The notes below the pieces were generated by a model. That model was not told the DNA's origin, did no database searches, and saw only the letters and a program-made list of their open reading frames with translations. Source: a virus. From it: a DNA stretch of 58,566 nucleotides. Numbering within the stretch: the first letter of the stretch is position 1; each line of letters opens with the position of its first letter. Made by a program: the position numbers and the translations under genes. Shown piece after piece: positions 13,240-52,269 of this stretch. The stretch spans positions 1 through 58,566 of the IMG/VR virus record IMGVR_UViG_3300034106_000909. The stretch is one strand, 5' to 3'.

Positions 13240-13246
13240 CTTGTGG

Positions 13247-13266
13247 GCCCGCTTGCGGGCTTTTTC
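13247..13266 (+). terminator. Rho-independent terminator after SSB-like gene
   Basis: GCCCG, loop CTTG, CGGGC followed by TTTTTC. It lies 69 bases after the SSB-like stop and before the primase leader, so it should partly separate the two transcripts. Confidence 0.75.
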
Positions 13267-13282: not shown

Positions 13283-13333
13283 ATGAGTTGCATAAATACA
13301 ACAGTTAGTGGGGTGACCAGTGAACACCCTTGA
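13283..13333 (+). CDS. 16-codon leader peptide upstream of primase
   Basis: ATG 13283 has TGGAG with 5-base spacing; the frame (MSCINTTVSGVTSEHP) ends with TGA at 13331-13333, 14 bases inside the primase gene, whose own start is a GTG. The overlap suggests translational coupling of a rare-start primase to a short upstream frame. It may have no function as a peptide. Confidence 0.35.
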   Translation: MSCINTTVSGVTSEHP

Positions 13334-16300
13334 GTTTCTCAAAGCAATCCTGCCCGAACACGGCATTCACTACTTAGCTCTGTTCAAAGAGGGCTACAAA
13401 TTTCCGGCTCACAAGGTTTACATCGACCTTGAGACCATGGCAGAGGCAGTTGACGGTATGGCTGGCAGCAAGCAGCTGTCTGTGTATCACGCCTGTGCTT
13501 CGTACCAGAAGGCCGTCATCGAGTTGGACGAGCTGGACAAGAACGGCAACAACAAACGCAAGTACCGAGTCCCTGAGAACTGGGACAAGGCCAAGTCGTT
13601 CTGGGTGGACGTTGACTGCGGCCAAGACAAGTTCGACAAGGGGCAGGGCTATCTGACCAAGAAGGACGCTGTTGTGGCCATGGCCAAGTTCGCCAAAGAA
13701 GTAGGCGTACCAAGGCCGCTGATGGTTGACTCCGGTAACGGCATCCATGCCTACTGGCCCTTGACCAAAGACATTGGACCGGAACTGTGGCGCAAGGTAG
13801 CCGTAGTCCTCAAGTCCACGCTGGCTCACTGCAAGGTTATCGCTGACCCGACACGCACAGCAGACTTCAGCTCCATCCTCAGACCCGTGGGTTCTACCAA
13901 CCGCAAGAACGGTGACGCCAAGACCGTTAAGGTACTGGCTACCTGCGAAGCCATTGACCCCAAAGAATTTGCTCAGCCACTGTTTGACTACGCCAAAGAG
14001 AATGACGTCAAGCTGATCCGCGAAGCGCCTAAGAAGCAGTACCAGCCGAATGATCTTAATTCCGATCTGACCGGCCACCTGCACCAATACCCCGAAGTTC
14101 CCGTCGATGCGAACGTCATGGCTGACAAATGCCAGCAGGTCGGAAAAATGCGCGACACCAAGGGTGATGTGTCCTACGATCACTGGTGGAAAGTTATCGG
14201 ACTGCTGACTTTCTGCGAGGGTGGGCGCGAAACTGCGGAGGAGTGGACAGTCAACCGCGCAGCTACTGACCATAAAAACTTGGACTGGGATGTCAAGTAC
14301 GACACTTGGAGCGCTGGCCCAACATACTGCGAGACGCTGGATAGCTGTAACCCGGGTGGCTGCAACGGCTGCGCGTTCAAGGGCAAGATAACTACCCCAC
14401 TGCAACTCGGGCGCGTCATGCCCGAGCCGGAAGAGACCGTCGAGGAGGTGGTCACTGAGTCCGGTACTACAGAGCAAACCACTGTTCCTGCCGTACCTAG
14501 GGGCTACCAGTGGGACAGCCACCTGCTGAGTCGGTTGATTCCCGACAAAGAAGGCGTCATGCAGGTGTTCCCCTTCTGTGAGAACTTGTTCTACCCCATC
14601 ACGCGCATACGTGGCGAAGACGGCACGTTCCGTTATGGCATCCGGTTCCACCTGCCCGACAAACGCGTTCGTGAATTTGAAATCCCCGGTGAGTCGGTGG
14701 CGTCCCCGACAGACATGCTGCGGGCCTTAGCCCGGTACGAACTTACCAAGAGCAACCACAAAAATGCAGGAGAGCACATGGCCGCATACCTGTTGGACCA
14801 GCTCCAAGCCCTCAAACGTAATATCTCTGAAACCAACACCCTGACTTCGTTCGGGTGGAAGGAAGATCACAAGGCGTTCCTGCTTGGTGAAACGCTTCAT
14901 TTCGCTGACGGTTCTGAACGCCCAGTGCTGGTGGGCGGTAACGCCAAAGAGCGTGTGGCTACGTTCCGCAATGGCCGTGGCAGTCTGCAAGGCTACGCAG
15001 ACGCTATGAACTTCATGTACAACCGCCCCGAAGCTGTCCACTGGCAGTACACCGTGTGCGCTGGATGGGGATCACTGCTGTCGCATCACTGCGAAGACCT
15101 GTACAAGGGTTTGATTCTGGCGCTGCAGGGCGGCAAGTCAGGTCGCGGTAAGACTACTGCGTGCCACGCTGCGCTGGCTGCGTTCGGCAATCCTGAGAAG
15201 ATGACCCTCAACTCCAAGGAGGGCTTCACCACCAATGCTTTGTGGGCTACGCTGGGTGTGTTCAACAACATCCCCGTGCTGGCTGACGAGCTGACCAACA
15301 TGGACGCTCCGGTGTTCAGTGATGTGGCGTACGGGGTATCCAACGGCCAAGACCGTATCCGCATGACCTCCAAGGGCGGCACTGTGGTGTTCGCCAAATC
15401 GTCCGAGTGGCGTCTGAACGTGTACGTGACTGGCAACCGGGACTTCTACGGACTGCTTGCGGCCAACCAAGCCAACTCACAGGCTGAGGCTGTGCGCCTG
15501 ATTCAGCTCAACGTGGATCGCTACGACCCGCTGATGCTGGTAAACCGAGCTGAGTTCCCTGACACCGAAGAAGGTGAGGACGCATGGAGGTCAGCCTCTG
15601 CCATCGTGGCTGCGGAGAACATCAAGCAGATGACGGCCAACTCTGGGCACGCTGGTGCTGCCATGGTCAAGTACATCTTGGCCAACGAAGCTGAGGTTCG
15701 CAAGGACATGCAGACCATGCTGTCCAAGTTCACCGACGTGCTGTCCAACCCCAAGTTTAGGTTTTACAGGGCACACAGCGCATGCACAATCGTGATCGCC
15801 AAGATCGCCAAGAAGCTGGGTATTGTGGACTTTGATATCCGTGAGATGTACAAGTTCACCGTGGGCCTGCTGCACGAACTGGCTGAGTCCGTGGAAGAGA
15901 ACAACACCGTGACGTCGGAAGATGCGTTCCAGCGCATGGTTGGCCAGCTTAGCCCCCGCGTCATCGTAACCACCGAATGCCGAGATGGTCGTGACGCTCG
16001 TGGCCCTGAAACCCCGCGTAACCGCGTCATTGGACCGATTGCAGGTCGCTACATACTTGGCACAGTCAACCACAAAGAGTTTGCCGGTCGTTTGATTTTG
16101 AGCCAGAAGGAAGTGCGGGAATGGTGCATGGCCAACCGCATGGACTACCAGTCGATGGTAGCCAGCCTCAAGGAAGCTAAGGCTCTGGTATCCCATGGTG
16201 AGAAGTTTGTCATCACCCGTGGAACTGACTGCACATCACAGCAGCAACGCTGCATTGTGGTGGATACCAAGCGCCTGAACGCTGAGTCAACAGCCCCTGT

Positions 16301-16352
16301 ATTGACCTTGGTTAGCAACAGACTTGACGGGGATGCAGCCAGCGATATATGA
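13320..16352 (+). CDS. AEP-type primase fused to P-loop helicase
   Basis: 1010 aa starting at GTG 13320 (an in-frame TGA at 13314 excludes an earlier start). The N-terminal part has the archaeo-eukaryotic primase/Prim-Pol pattern: D97-x-D99 (WVDVD), SGNGIHAYW with H143, and SSILRPVGSTNRK with R188. The middle (about 255-370) resembles PriCT-2 and holds a Cys cluster (CNPGGCNGC). The C-terminal half is a P-loop helicase: GKSGRGKT (605-612), Walker B D656-E657 (LADE). It should prime and unwind for the family A polymerase, replacing a DnaG/DnaB pair. Confidence 0.85.
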   Translation: MNTLEFLKAILPEHGIHYLALFKEGYKFPAHKVYIDLETMAEAVDGMAGSKQLSVYHACASYQKAVIELDELDKNGNNKRKYRVPENWDKAKSFWVDVDCGQDKFDKGQGYLTKKDAVVAMAKFAKEVGVPRPLMVDSGNGIHAYWPLTKDIGPELWRKVAVVLKSTLAHCKVIADPTRTADFSSILRPVGSTNRKNGDAKTVKVLATCEAIDPKEFAQPLFDYAKENDVKLIREAPKKQYQPNDLNSDLTGHLHQYPEVPVDANVMADKCQQVGKMRDTKGDVSYDHWWKVIGLLTFCEGGRETAEEWTVNRAATDHKNLDWDVKYDTWSAGPTYCETLDSCNPGGCNGCAFKGKITTPLQLGRVMPEPEETVEEVVTESGTTEQTTVPAVPRGYQWDSHLLSRLIPDKEGVMQVFPFCENLFYPITRIRGEDGTFRYGIRFHLPDKRVREFEIPGESVASPTDMLRALARYELTKSNHKNAGEHMAAYLLDQLQALKRNISETNTLTSFGWKEDHKAFLLGETLHFADGSERPVLVGGNAKERVATFRNGRGSLQGYADAMNFMYNRPEAVHWQYTVCAGWGSLLSHHCEDLYKGLILALQGGKSGRGKTTACHAALAAFGNPEKMTLNSKEGFTTNALWATLGVFNNIPVLADELTNMDAPVFSDVAYGVSNGQDRIRMTSKGGTVVFAKSSEWRLNVYVTGNRDFYGLLAANQANSQAEAVRLIQLNVDRYDPLMLVNRAEFPDTEEGEDAWRSASAIVAAENIKQMTANSGHAGAAMVKYILANEAEVRKDMQTMLSKFTDVLSNPKFRFYRAHSACTIVIAKIAKKLGIVDFDIREMYKFTVGLLHELAESVEENNTVTSEDAFQRMVGQLSPRVIVTTECRDGRDARGPETPRNRVIGPIAGRYILGTVNHKEFAGRLILSQKEVREWCMANRMDYQSMVASLKEAKALVSHGEKFVITRGTDCTSQQQRCIVVDTKRLNAESTAPVLTLVSNRLDGDAASDI

Positions 16353-49658: not shown

Positions 49659-50167
49659 TTGATCTCCTTGACCTCAGCGTCCAGTGTAACCGGCGTGATG
49701 GTCTGCTGGTTGCTCAAGTTTATGCTCTGGCCACCACCCAAGTCGATAGAAATGCTGAACCCCGGGCCAACATCTTTGATTTTCTCCTCTTTGGGCTCCA
49801 ACCCTGCGGCCTTGATGAGCGTCTTGAGGACTTCGTGCTTCTGACTGAGGCTGGCATCGACCGAAGCTGCACTGAGGTACACCTGATCGAGCAAGTCCCC
49901 GGCCATCCATGCTGCCTTGGCTTTGAACGTGACGCCGTTTTTCTCGTACTCGGACCGTTTCATCTGAACTTGCAGTTGAAACCACGGCTGCACGGCCAAT
50001 TCGTTGTAATCCTCGACGGACATCCCGTGGCGAGCGGCCACGATTAGCTCATCTTCTAGCCCAAGGGCCACCGAAGCCACCATTTCCTCGCTGATTTGCG
50101 GAAACGACACCGTTTTTGGCTTGTATTCCAGCGGCAGATCGTCCATTGGTACGTCTTCAGGCTGCAT
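49655..50167 (-). CDS. Terminase small subunit-like protein
   Basis: 170 aa with GGAGACCGCAA before ATG 50167. The middle is helical (DELIVAARHGMSVEDYNEL, VQMKRSEYEKNGVTFKAKAAWMAGDLL), with a helix-turn-helix-like start, and the C-terminus is beta (ISIDLGGGQSINL). Position immediately upstream of terL with a GTGA overlap makes a DNA-recognition subunit the best reading. Confidence 0.75.
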   Translation of the reverse strand: MQPEDVPMDDLPLEYKPKTVSFPQISEEMVASVALGLEDELIVAARHGMSVEDYNELAVQPWFQLQVQMKRSEYEKNGVTFKAKAAWMAGDLLDQVYLSAASVDASLSQKHEVLKTLIKAAGLEPKEEKIKDVGPGFSISIDLGGGQSINLSNQQTITPVTLDAEVKEIK

Positions 50168-50327
50168 TTGCGGTCTCCGAAGCCTGTTTTTGGGCTTTTT
50201 CGAGGGCTAAATAGTATTTTTCCATGGCAATTCTGGCCATTTCAGCCGAGGAAACCCCCTTTTGGGAGGCCAAAACACGGTATTTTTCGATCAATTCTTC
50301 AGGCAAATACAGGTTCCACCGCTTCAT
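50157..50327 (-). CDS. Ribbon-helix-helix protein
   Basis: 56 aa from ATG 50327, which has GGAG at 6 bases. KRWNLYLPEELIEKYRVLASQKG then SSAEMARIAMEKYY reads as strand, helix, turn, helix: a MetJ/Arc/CopG-type DNA-binding dimer. A Gln/Ala tail follows. It is first in the late operon and faces a palindrome-rich control region, so autoregulation or late-promoter control is a natural hypothesis. It overlaps the small terminase by 11 bases. Confidence 0.75.
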   Translation of the reverse strand: MKRWNLYLPEELIEKYRVLASQKGVSSAEMARIAMEKYYLALEKAQKQASETANAA

Positions 50328-50339
50328 TTTGTGCTCCAA

Positions 50340-50370
50340 ATGTATGTATACACACGTATTGTACATACGT
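50340..50370 (-). promoter_or_regulatory. Candidate late promoter with overlapping operator
   Basis: A TGTATACA core (50345-50352) and an inverted half-site GTACATACGT (50361-50370) lie directly before the RHH start. The minus strand carries TACAAT (50358-50363) as a possible -10 between them; no good -35 is visible. A protein bound to the palindrome would cover the -10. Confidence 0.45.
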
Positions 50371-50420
50371 TTTTTAATTTTTTGGGGCTTTTTTACAAGG
50401 GGGCGGGGTGTTTTTAGGGG

Positions 50421-50436
50421 TGTATGTATACATACA
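50421..50436. promoter_or_regulatory. Perfect 16-bp palindrome TGTATGTATACATACA
   Basis: A perfect inverted repeat in the divergent gap. Its TGTATACA core recurs at 50345, 51870, 52250 and 52296 with a variant at 52236. Far more copies in 2 kb than chance for an 8-mer; probable operator of one regulator. Confidence 0.6.
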
Positions 50437-50520
50437 TGTCGTAAGTTGGGTGTGCTACGTGACTGCGTCGTAAGCAGAGGGCGGGGCGGGTGCCGCCTTG
50501 GGGGGCCTGTGGGGGGTCGG

Positions 50521-50580
50521 GTAGCGGCCTGACCAGTAGTGGAAGGGTTGCATCATGCAGTAGCGGCCTGACCAGTAGTG
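50521..50580. repeat. Two direct copies of a 21-bp sequence
   Basis: GTAGCGGCCTGACCAGTAGTG at 50521-50541 and 50560-50580, 39 bp apart, exact. The inner GCCTGACCA recurs at 50901-50909. Possible protein-binding sites or repeated RNA elements. Confidence 0.75.
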
Positions 50581-50952
50581 AAGCGCAGTGTTCAACAGCG
50601 CAGTGGTGAGAATTGGCGACCAGCGGAAATCGCGAATAGCCCTTGTGTCGAGTAGGGTAACTCCCCGAAGCCCAGTGCGGGTAGAGGTGCGAAGCCAGAG
50701 GACACGTGGAGAGTCACACGCCAACGGGTTATGCCGGGCCGGGTGTCAAGCCACAACCTGCCTAGCAGGAATGGACTCATCGCGTCGCCGGAAGTGGACG
50801 TGTCCTGAGATTGCCATGTGACTGCCGATCACAGCGAGTATGCAAGATGACTCAATGTGCGTAGGGGTCATGAATCGTATATCGCAGGCTTTTTGAGGTT
50901 GCCTGACCAACAAACTAACCGAGCGCCAACAACCGAGGGCGCTAATACTCGG

Positions 50953-51009
50953 AAGCCCTCTCAAGGGGCTTGAGTGTGTATCCGCTTTGGGTACACATCA
51001 AAGCTCAAT
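50953..51009 (+). promoter_or_regulatory. Hairpin leader of the 174-aa gene
   Basis: AAGCCC-loop-GGGCTT, then TTGAG-TGTGTATCC, loop GCTTT, GGGTACACA and CTCAA (50970-51009). The double hairpin ends about 6 bases before the AAGGAAAAATC ribosome region of ATG 51029, so it likely stabilises the mRNA or regulates translation. Confidence 0.5.
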
Positions 51010-51028
51010 CAACCACTAAGGAAAAATC

Positions 51029-51553
51029 ATGGAAAAAGCTCAAATCCTCAAGAATATCGGTTCAATCGGTCGTGCATCCAAAAAGCTGACCGCCGACATT
51101 CAAGCGACTGCTGTCGGTTGCGCTCTCCACGCTGTCAAGCATGGGGACGTGACTCTTGCAGACCAACTCGTGGACGCCTTGGGTAAGGGTATGCGTAAAG
51201 CATCCTTGCGTGCATGGTTCGAGACCAACACGCCAATGTTCATTGCCAAGGGCAAGGACAAGTTCAGCTTCGATACTGAGCGTGCTAAGACTATGCGTGG
51301 CATGGATGCCAAGGTCTTGGAAGAAGGGCTCATGGCGCTTGCATGGGAAGAAGCCAAGCCAGAAGAAAAGGTCGTGTCAGTATTTGACGTGTCCGAAGCG
51401 TTCGACAAGTTTATCAAGCGTGTCGAGTCTATGACCAAGGATGCCGAGGTCACAACCCGCAACCGTGAAATGCTGGATTACTTGCAGTCCGCCAGTGCTC
51501 AGTACCACGAAGCCAAGGCCATGAACAGCCGAGTGTCTCTGTCCGCCGAGTAA
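51029..51553 (+). CDS. Conserved phage protein, first gene of right arm
   Basis: 174 aa, helical and basic. GSIGRASKKLTADIQATAVG, LADQLVDALGKGMRKASLRAWF and a C-terminal coiled segment are recognisable as a phage protein family of unknown function. Codon pattern and a good ribosome site plus the structured leader suggest high early expression; a nucleoid-associated or host-takeover function would fit but is not shown. Confidence 0.72.
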   Translation: MEKAQILKNIGSIGRASKKLTADIQATAVGCALHAVKHGDVTLADQLVDALGKGMRKASLRAWFETNTPMFIAKGKDKFSFDTERAKTMRGMDAKVLEEGLMALAWEEAKPEEKVVSVFDVSEAFDKFIKRVESMTKDAEVTTRNREMLDYLQSASAQYHEAKAMNSRVSLSAE

Positions 51554-51865: not shown

Positions 51866-52269
51866 TGTATGTATACACAACTATCCAATTATCCAAGGGG
51901 CTTTTTACCTTGGATAATTAGGTTTCTCTTTAAAATCAATGGGTTAGACGTGCAATTAGACAATTAGACAATTATCCAAGATATTAGGTACACACAGACG
52001 ATGCGTGTGTGTTCTTGTGTGAAGGTGCGCTGAGCGCACACAATCCATACAACCCTAAAATCCTCGCGCACACTCCAGCTTTTCTGGATAATTGGATAAT
52101 TAGCCTAGGGTATACCCTCATACCCTTTCACAGCCTAGTATCCATGCGGGTTCCAGCATCAGTACCCGCTAACATCGACTATCCAAGCCCATCAAACCTT
52201 GGATACCACCTTGCCTAATTACCCCATCAACGTACGTATACATAACGTGTGTATACATCAGGAGTCATC
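51866..52269. other. Iteron- and palindrome-rich gap, origin candidate
   Basis: About 400 bp without a credible gene. A 12-bp inverted repeat AATTATCCAAGG/CCTTGGATAATT (51887-51919) is followed by CAATTAGA twice and CAATTATCC (51953-51977), two reversed GGATAATT units near 52086-52101, TATCCAAG/CTTGGATA (52180-52205), the perfect hairpin GTGCGC-TGA-GCGCAC (52025-52039) and the palindrome AGGGTATACCCT (52107-52118). AT-rich iterons plus dyads are typical of replication origins. A regulatory leader is the alternative. Confidence 0.45.
52231..52260. promoter_or_regulatory. Two GTATACAT operator-like sites
   Basis: ACGTATACAT (52234-52243) and TGTGTATACATCA (52248-52260, core TGTATACA 52250-52257) stand 14 bases apart immediately before the ribosome site of ATG 52270. 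Same family as the palindrome at 50421. Confidence 0.5.

Follow-up and report, generated by a model that had tools for sequence, protein, structure and literature searches.

The antiterminating leader RNA put of phage HK022 is about 70 nt long and folds into simple hairpins, and the phi29 pRNA, of about 170 nt, is part of a different packaging motor. To our knowledge, few large RNAs contain several conserved pseudoknots, and those described from phages so far, GOLLD and ROOL, have no known role. An abundant, discrete transcript that forms homo-oligomers is characteristic of ROOL and GOLLD. Both are large, ornate phage RNAs without a known function or protein partner (PMC12286853). In the lytic Vibrio phage ICP1, an orf-less gap between gp139 and gp140 yields the phage's most abundant transcript, a large non-coding RNA with no known function (PMC7567579).

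Here we examined a gene-free region in the record of an uncultivated podovirus-like phage. The whole stretch analysed, 58,566 bases, is referred to as the window. Searches for known families gave no assignment for the element in this region. Scanning the window and 18 relative loci with all 4227 families of Rfam 15 (cmscan) produced nothing in the element at gathering score, including the ROOL, GOLLD and HEARO models that the original prediction had proposed to search, as well as OLE, phi29 pRNA, group I/II introns and known ribozymes. At E<=10, merely weak miRNA and SAM-SAH matches appeared, far below cut-off. When 50,697 phage records and 72,556 plasmid records were searched at the DNA level, one chance match of 38 nt was obtained; a search of 84,980 prokaryote genomes by RNA pattern and protein profile returned nothing, and no description of this RNA was found in the part of the literature covered. 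We class the element as a new family among the large structured phage RNAs.

The gene-free hub and its control region

The phage encodes a terminase (phrog_2), a phrog_332 portal/adaptor, and members of DNA polymerase and helicase families. The isolates nearest to it by terminase and polymerase include Pelagibacter phage Hodr, Pseudomonas phage Rollin, and Rhizobium phage RHph_TM3_14A, at about 31-40% identity. Late genes occupy the minus strand from 50328 down to 17282, and early genes occupy the plus strand from 51029 and, provided that the record is circularly permuted, extend across its first 17 kb. The original prediction had described about 700 nt without a gene, between divergent operons, in a genome that is otherwise almost all coding. 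All of this holds: the gap extends from the start codon of a minus-strand gene to the gene at 51029, and ORFs of at least 60 aa in the operon direction cover 96% of the window. The structured RNA is positioned at this hub, which separates the late and early blocks and is laid out as follows.

50157..50328, minus strand: gene for a 57-aa ribbon-helix-helix (RHH) protein (Pfam RHH_5, 29.7 bits against a cut-off of 26), with its ATG at 50328, heading the late side
50341..50436: operator-like TGTATGTATAC sites at 50341 (+), 50421 (+) and 50426 (-), upstream of the RNA
50450..50955 (about; 5' end approximate), plus strand: conserved structured RNA core of about 500 nt, recognised by homology in 24 further sequences, covariation and G-U/A-C asymmetry
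50953..51006, plus strand: 3' leader with two mutually exclusive hairpins that share GGGCUU (50953-58/50966-71 or 50966-82/50990-51006)
51029..51553, plus strand: first early gene, phrog_1448 (PHROGs E=1.3e-34), directly 3' of the RNA in every relative inspected

The interval marked in the original prediction was 50328-51028. The RNA core within it stops 76 nt short of the start codon at 51029, and 50329-50440 is probably operator/promoter DNA outside the RNA. The 57-aa RHH protein is a probable repressor acting at the hub. Sites resembling TGTATGTATAC with at most one mismatch number seven in the window, against 0.39 expected, and none lies outside the hub and the opening stretch of the early operon; in most relatives, a GTGTGTATGT motif stands a short distance 5' of the RNA. 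The hub sites are probably RHH operators overlapping the hub promoter; a scan of the hub region gave no match to the sigma-70 promoter consensus. Additional TGTATGTATAC-like sites, at window positions 51866, 52292, 52430, and 53548 in that opening stretch, suggest a regulon of the small RHH protein.

No RNA polymerase gene was detected among the early proteins scanned, and the host polymerase is therefore probably used. Neither ARAGORN nor Rfam gave a tRNA or tmRNA match in the window. Terminator-like sites are present in the early operon at chance frequency. One of them, at window 13245-13262 (+), is a GC-rich hairpin with a T-run just before a primase/helicase-like gene (13320-16352). Between 50200 and 51100 no terminator-like site was found.

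Anatomy and covariation of the RNA

We searched IMG/VR by neighbour protein and then by alignment and RNA patterns, and recovered homologous elements in 24 distinct sequences besides the window, equivalent to 30 IMG/VR contigs. These were aligned with MAFFT without reference to structure. In an own-partner test of seven helices, strands fitted their own partner better than the partners of other phages (p from 5e-5 to 1.1e-3), and controls with displaced windows were null in 22 of 24 cases. Since the helix windows of this test were picked by eye, we added a structure-blind test, in which all column pairs of 20 sequences were scored by G-test with APC against a null simulated on the tree. The following elements were delineated, all on the plus strand.

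50453-50459/50469-50476: helix H1, tentative (weak covariation; own-partner p=0.04 only)
50521-50541 and 50560-50580: tandem module, two exact copies of a 21-nt unit
50605-07/50619-21 (S1) and 50615-17/50639-41 (S2): pseudoknot A (own-partner p=5e-5), with an inner hairpin at 50623-25/50631-33
50645-50649/50701-50705: long helix; both partners altered in 4 of 5 pairs, 94% paired (own-partner p=1.5e-4)
50706-09/50751-54, 50715-17/50743-45 and 50725-27/50734-36: nested helices; both partners altered in 9 of 10 pairs, 95-100% paired
50757-61/50765-69: hairpin with a 3-nt loop (own-partner p=5e-5)
50770..50878: insert present in group A (the nearest relatives) only; in the alignments, its place is taken by two short hairpins in other groups
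50885..50920: pseudoknot C; the loop (50897-50900) of hairpin 50885-89/50901-05 pairs with 50917-50920 (own-partner p=5e-5 for hairpin and loop pairing each)
50923..50952: compact H-type pseudoknot B; GCGCC (50923-27), AACAA, CCGAG (50933-37), GGCGC (50938-42), TAATA, CTCGG (50948-52)

The named structure scored far above its controls in both parts of the alignment: 0.482 in the 3' part (20 sequences), compared with 0.158 +- 0.019 when shuffled and at most 0.126 when slid, and 0.547 in the middle (13 sequences), compared with 0.223 +- 0.020 and at most 0.149. In the structure-blind test, the top seven pairs were all canonical, with just three at E<0.05. They fall in pseudoknot A, where S2 contributes the first-ranked pair (50615-50641) and the third (50616-50640), in the pseudoknot-C hairpin (50885-50905, ranked second), in the nested middle helices (50715-50745), and in the 3-nt-loop hairpin (50759-50767 and 50760-50766); one further pair lies in the variable insert region, where the group A alignment is uncertain. 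S2 of pseudoknot A is shorter in the window than in the relatives. The long helix covaries across all groups. In pseudoknot B, S1 is invariant in 20 sequences, all five pairs of S2 changed on both sides (95% paired; own-partner p=5e-5), and the single-stranded blocks around it are near-invariant. Compensatory changes thus extend over about a dozen helices, three pseudoknots included, and on this comparative evidence the region is a real structured RNA.

The named helices contain 56 G-U cells against 7 A-C cells, and the element therefore works as plus-strand RNA. Stop codons interrupt every frame in 14 of 14 homologues tested. Between close pairs, the lengths of most indels are not divisible by three. 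Coding is thus ruled out. The proposal of a large phage RNA or complex regulatory leader is thus supported: the covariation it called for is strong, no open frame is conserved, and no Rfam family matches.

The count of stems offered as evidence in the original prediction fared worse. The minimum free energy of 50440-50960 is ordinary for this genome (z = +1.39 against shuffles), that of 50440-51028 is no different (z = -0.02), and background stretches have similar z-scores. The conserved structure is visible only through comparison of relatives; as its folding score does not exceed that of shuffled sequence, an RNA of this sort would escape scans based on energy. The reported exact 21-nt direct repeat is the tandem module above. 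A 9-bp helix, 50699-50707 with 50798-50806, is indeed exactly complementary, but it exists only in the nearest relatives, its 3' arm lying in the group A insert. It is at best an alternative pairing, because its 5' arm overlaps the 3' strand of the covarying long helix. Several of the stems drawn earlier differ from the conserved ones.

The predicted hairpin leader was found at about 50953-51006. Its second hairpin covaries in 12 sequences (0.328, compared with 0.200 shuffled and at most 0.136 slid) and is close to the ribosome-binding site. The competing hairpins occur in most groups, and the second is absent from group C. We infer that the two act as a switch. Neither is followed by a U-run, as a riboswitch or attenuator of the terminator type would have.

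Between the first helix and the repeats, window 50476-50519 is G-rich in groups A and B and C-rich in groups C and D, and any G-quadruplex potential therefore switches strand. The repeats themselves resemble each other more within a genome than between genomes (similarity 0.81 versus 0.46 across 16 genomes, p=5e-5). In addition, the sequences flanking the RNA in two relatives, L001 and L002, share 94% and 98% identity, while the middle 224 nt of L002 (upstream of 3001) has been cleanly swapped for the type seen in L016 and L020. The concerted repeats and the swapped middle would fit a recognition part that changes as a unit.

Genomic context among relatives

Wherever the flanks could be read, the element has a divergent late block on one side and the same early gene, phrog_1448, on the other. 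Pattern searches independent of the protein revealed no contig with the RNA but without this gene, and their extra matches were chance hits in coding sequence. Those of the pseudoknot-B pattern in viral contigs L030, L037, and L042, and of the hairpin pattern in L078 and L081, were rejected on this ground. Comparison of the relatives establishes a structure that has been kept by compensatory change, on the plus strand, non-coding, and always in this place.

The early gene itself is more widespread. Relatives of phrog_1448 are present in 438 isolate phage records, and an AF2 model of the 51029..51553 product had no fold match in the PDB. By model R1, the RNA is absent from all three phages with phrog_1448 relatives that were examined, and the gene therefore seems not to need the RNA. 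When R1 was run on these three phages and on isolates KPP25, RHph_TM3_14A, Rollin, and a Pelagibacter phage, only Rollin matched (E=0.135); this match was rejected, as it lies inside an ORF and adjoins an unrelated gene.

Several loci showed related or partial arrangements. Phage RHph_TM3_14A has the same genome layout and a 680-nt gene-free hub in the same place, rich in G-runs (L076:5023-5702, corresponding to MN988472.1 17522-18201), and a second gap of about 770 nt (L076:6857-7625). These gaps are possibly another large RNA, for which homology to the window element could not be shown. The more distant relatives L050, L052, L054, and L055 (upstream of 3001) have a gene-free hub with other apparent structure; an end like pseudoknot B is kept in L055 and, by eye, in L052 (R1 E=0.003 and 3.1). 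In L021:1-2848, the match to the window is limited to the last ~184 nt before the gene and the upstream sequence looks coding; either the RNA was truncated and re-joined or the contig is chimeric.

In group C relatives, a Rhizobiales sRNA family, Rfam RF02496 Atu_At1, is strongly matched on the opposite, minus strand in the sequence 5' of the RNA (68-85 bits against a cut-off of 60; L012:2362-2467, L013:1146-1252, and L044:2348-2454; the L013 copy is farther from the RNA). The match may hint at an alphaproteobacterial host or at a phage origin of that sRNA.

Possible roles and comparison with known systems

Our preferred reading, which we hold tentatively and at somewhat short of an even chance, is that the conserved RNA of about 500 nt, with its three pseudoknots, is transcribed rightward from the hub as the 5' leader of the early operon. 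Transcription would start at the RHH-controlled promoter near 50430-50450, and the RNA would be made at the onset of infection and act in cis on the early operon 3' of it. It might modify host RNA polymerase leaving the hub (leader-RNA antitermination), or it might determine how well the first messages are translated and how stable they are; partner recognition would fall to the repeats and the exchangeable middle domain. This reading is favoured over a stand-alone RNA because synteny is constant and no terminator is seen, and it is supported by the covarying hairpin near the ribosome-binding site and by the lack of a phage RNA polymerase among the scanned proteins. It is weakened by the unusual size of the RNA, the lack of a sigma-70 consensus, the phrog_1448 phages that have no RNA, and group C, in which the switch-like pair is missing. 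We know of no antitermination leader of comparable size or elaborateness.

The main rival, unlikely but of real weight, is a trans-acting RNA that stands alone, as ROOL and GOLLD do. Such an RNA would be stable and abundant, with a 3' end formed by processing or termination after pseudoknot B; it might self-assemble or associate with a host factor, and the gene would be no more than its downstream neighbour. The size, the several pseudoknots, and the lack of protein-coding content agree with this, as does the exchange of the middle domain as a block between relatives otherwise 94-98% identical, and concerted repeats within each genome are expected of a specificity surface. Against it, no terminator is seen after 50955, the RNA is never found apart from the early gene, and tRNA neighbours are lacking. 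A bolder reading, which we regard as doubtful, is that the element represents a new class of large RNA in phages, the first to be made during infection and acting in trans, with the exchangeable middle and co-evolving repeats setting specificity, for example for a host factor or a competing phage that is acted on.

A DNA element, such as a replication origin or a packaging site with single-strand folds, would suit the position at the hub beside the terminase operon, the presence of repeats, and the runs of G or C whose strand differs from group to group. We consider it improbable, given the excess of G-U over A-C cells, a mark of plus-strand RNA, and given that GC skew does not clearly switch at the hub; a DNA element could still account for the G-run and repeat stretch taken by itself. 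A catalytic RNA, self-cleaving or other, that separates the leader from the early message is slightly less probable still: compact H-type pseudoknots, and the near-invariant single-stranded blocks around pseudoknot B, recall such RNAs, but no ribozyme or intron family of Rfam matches, and the element is much larger than the small self-cleaving ribozymes. That the stems arose by chance in an ordinary non-coding spacer, as the unremarkable folding energy would allow, is scarcely credible, being refuted by the covariation tests.

The RNA found here heads the early operon in a fixed position beside a constant neighbouring gene, its domains can be swapped, and it covaries strongly. This combination provides a secondary-structure model and testable predictions, such as whether the RNA is joined to the early message and whether it is needed early. 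Like ROOL and GOLLD, the window RNA is large, non-coding, elaborate, and phage-borne, with several pseudoknots. Unlike them, it has no covariance-model match and no visible terminator and is fixed at the early-operon head; tRNA neighbours, frequent though not universal for ROOL and GOLLD, are absent from the window. It shares with the ICP1 non-coding RNA its large size and its location in an orf-less phage gap; however, the ICP1 RNA lies at the lysis cluster and is known from RNA-seq, and the DNA search of the phage collection gave no similarity between the two. As with the phi29 pRNA, it is a structured phage RNA beside terminase genes, but its sense strand points in the direction of the early genes, with the terminase behind it. 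The likeness to HK022 put is that of a structured 5' leader of an early phage operon, for which use of the host polymerase is proposed: the RNA lies 5' of the early operon, on the same strand, with no terminator between RNA and gene (synteny in 30 contigs), and its transcription is predicted. Compared with put, it is about seven times longer and contains three pseudoknots.
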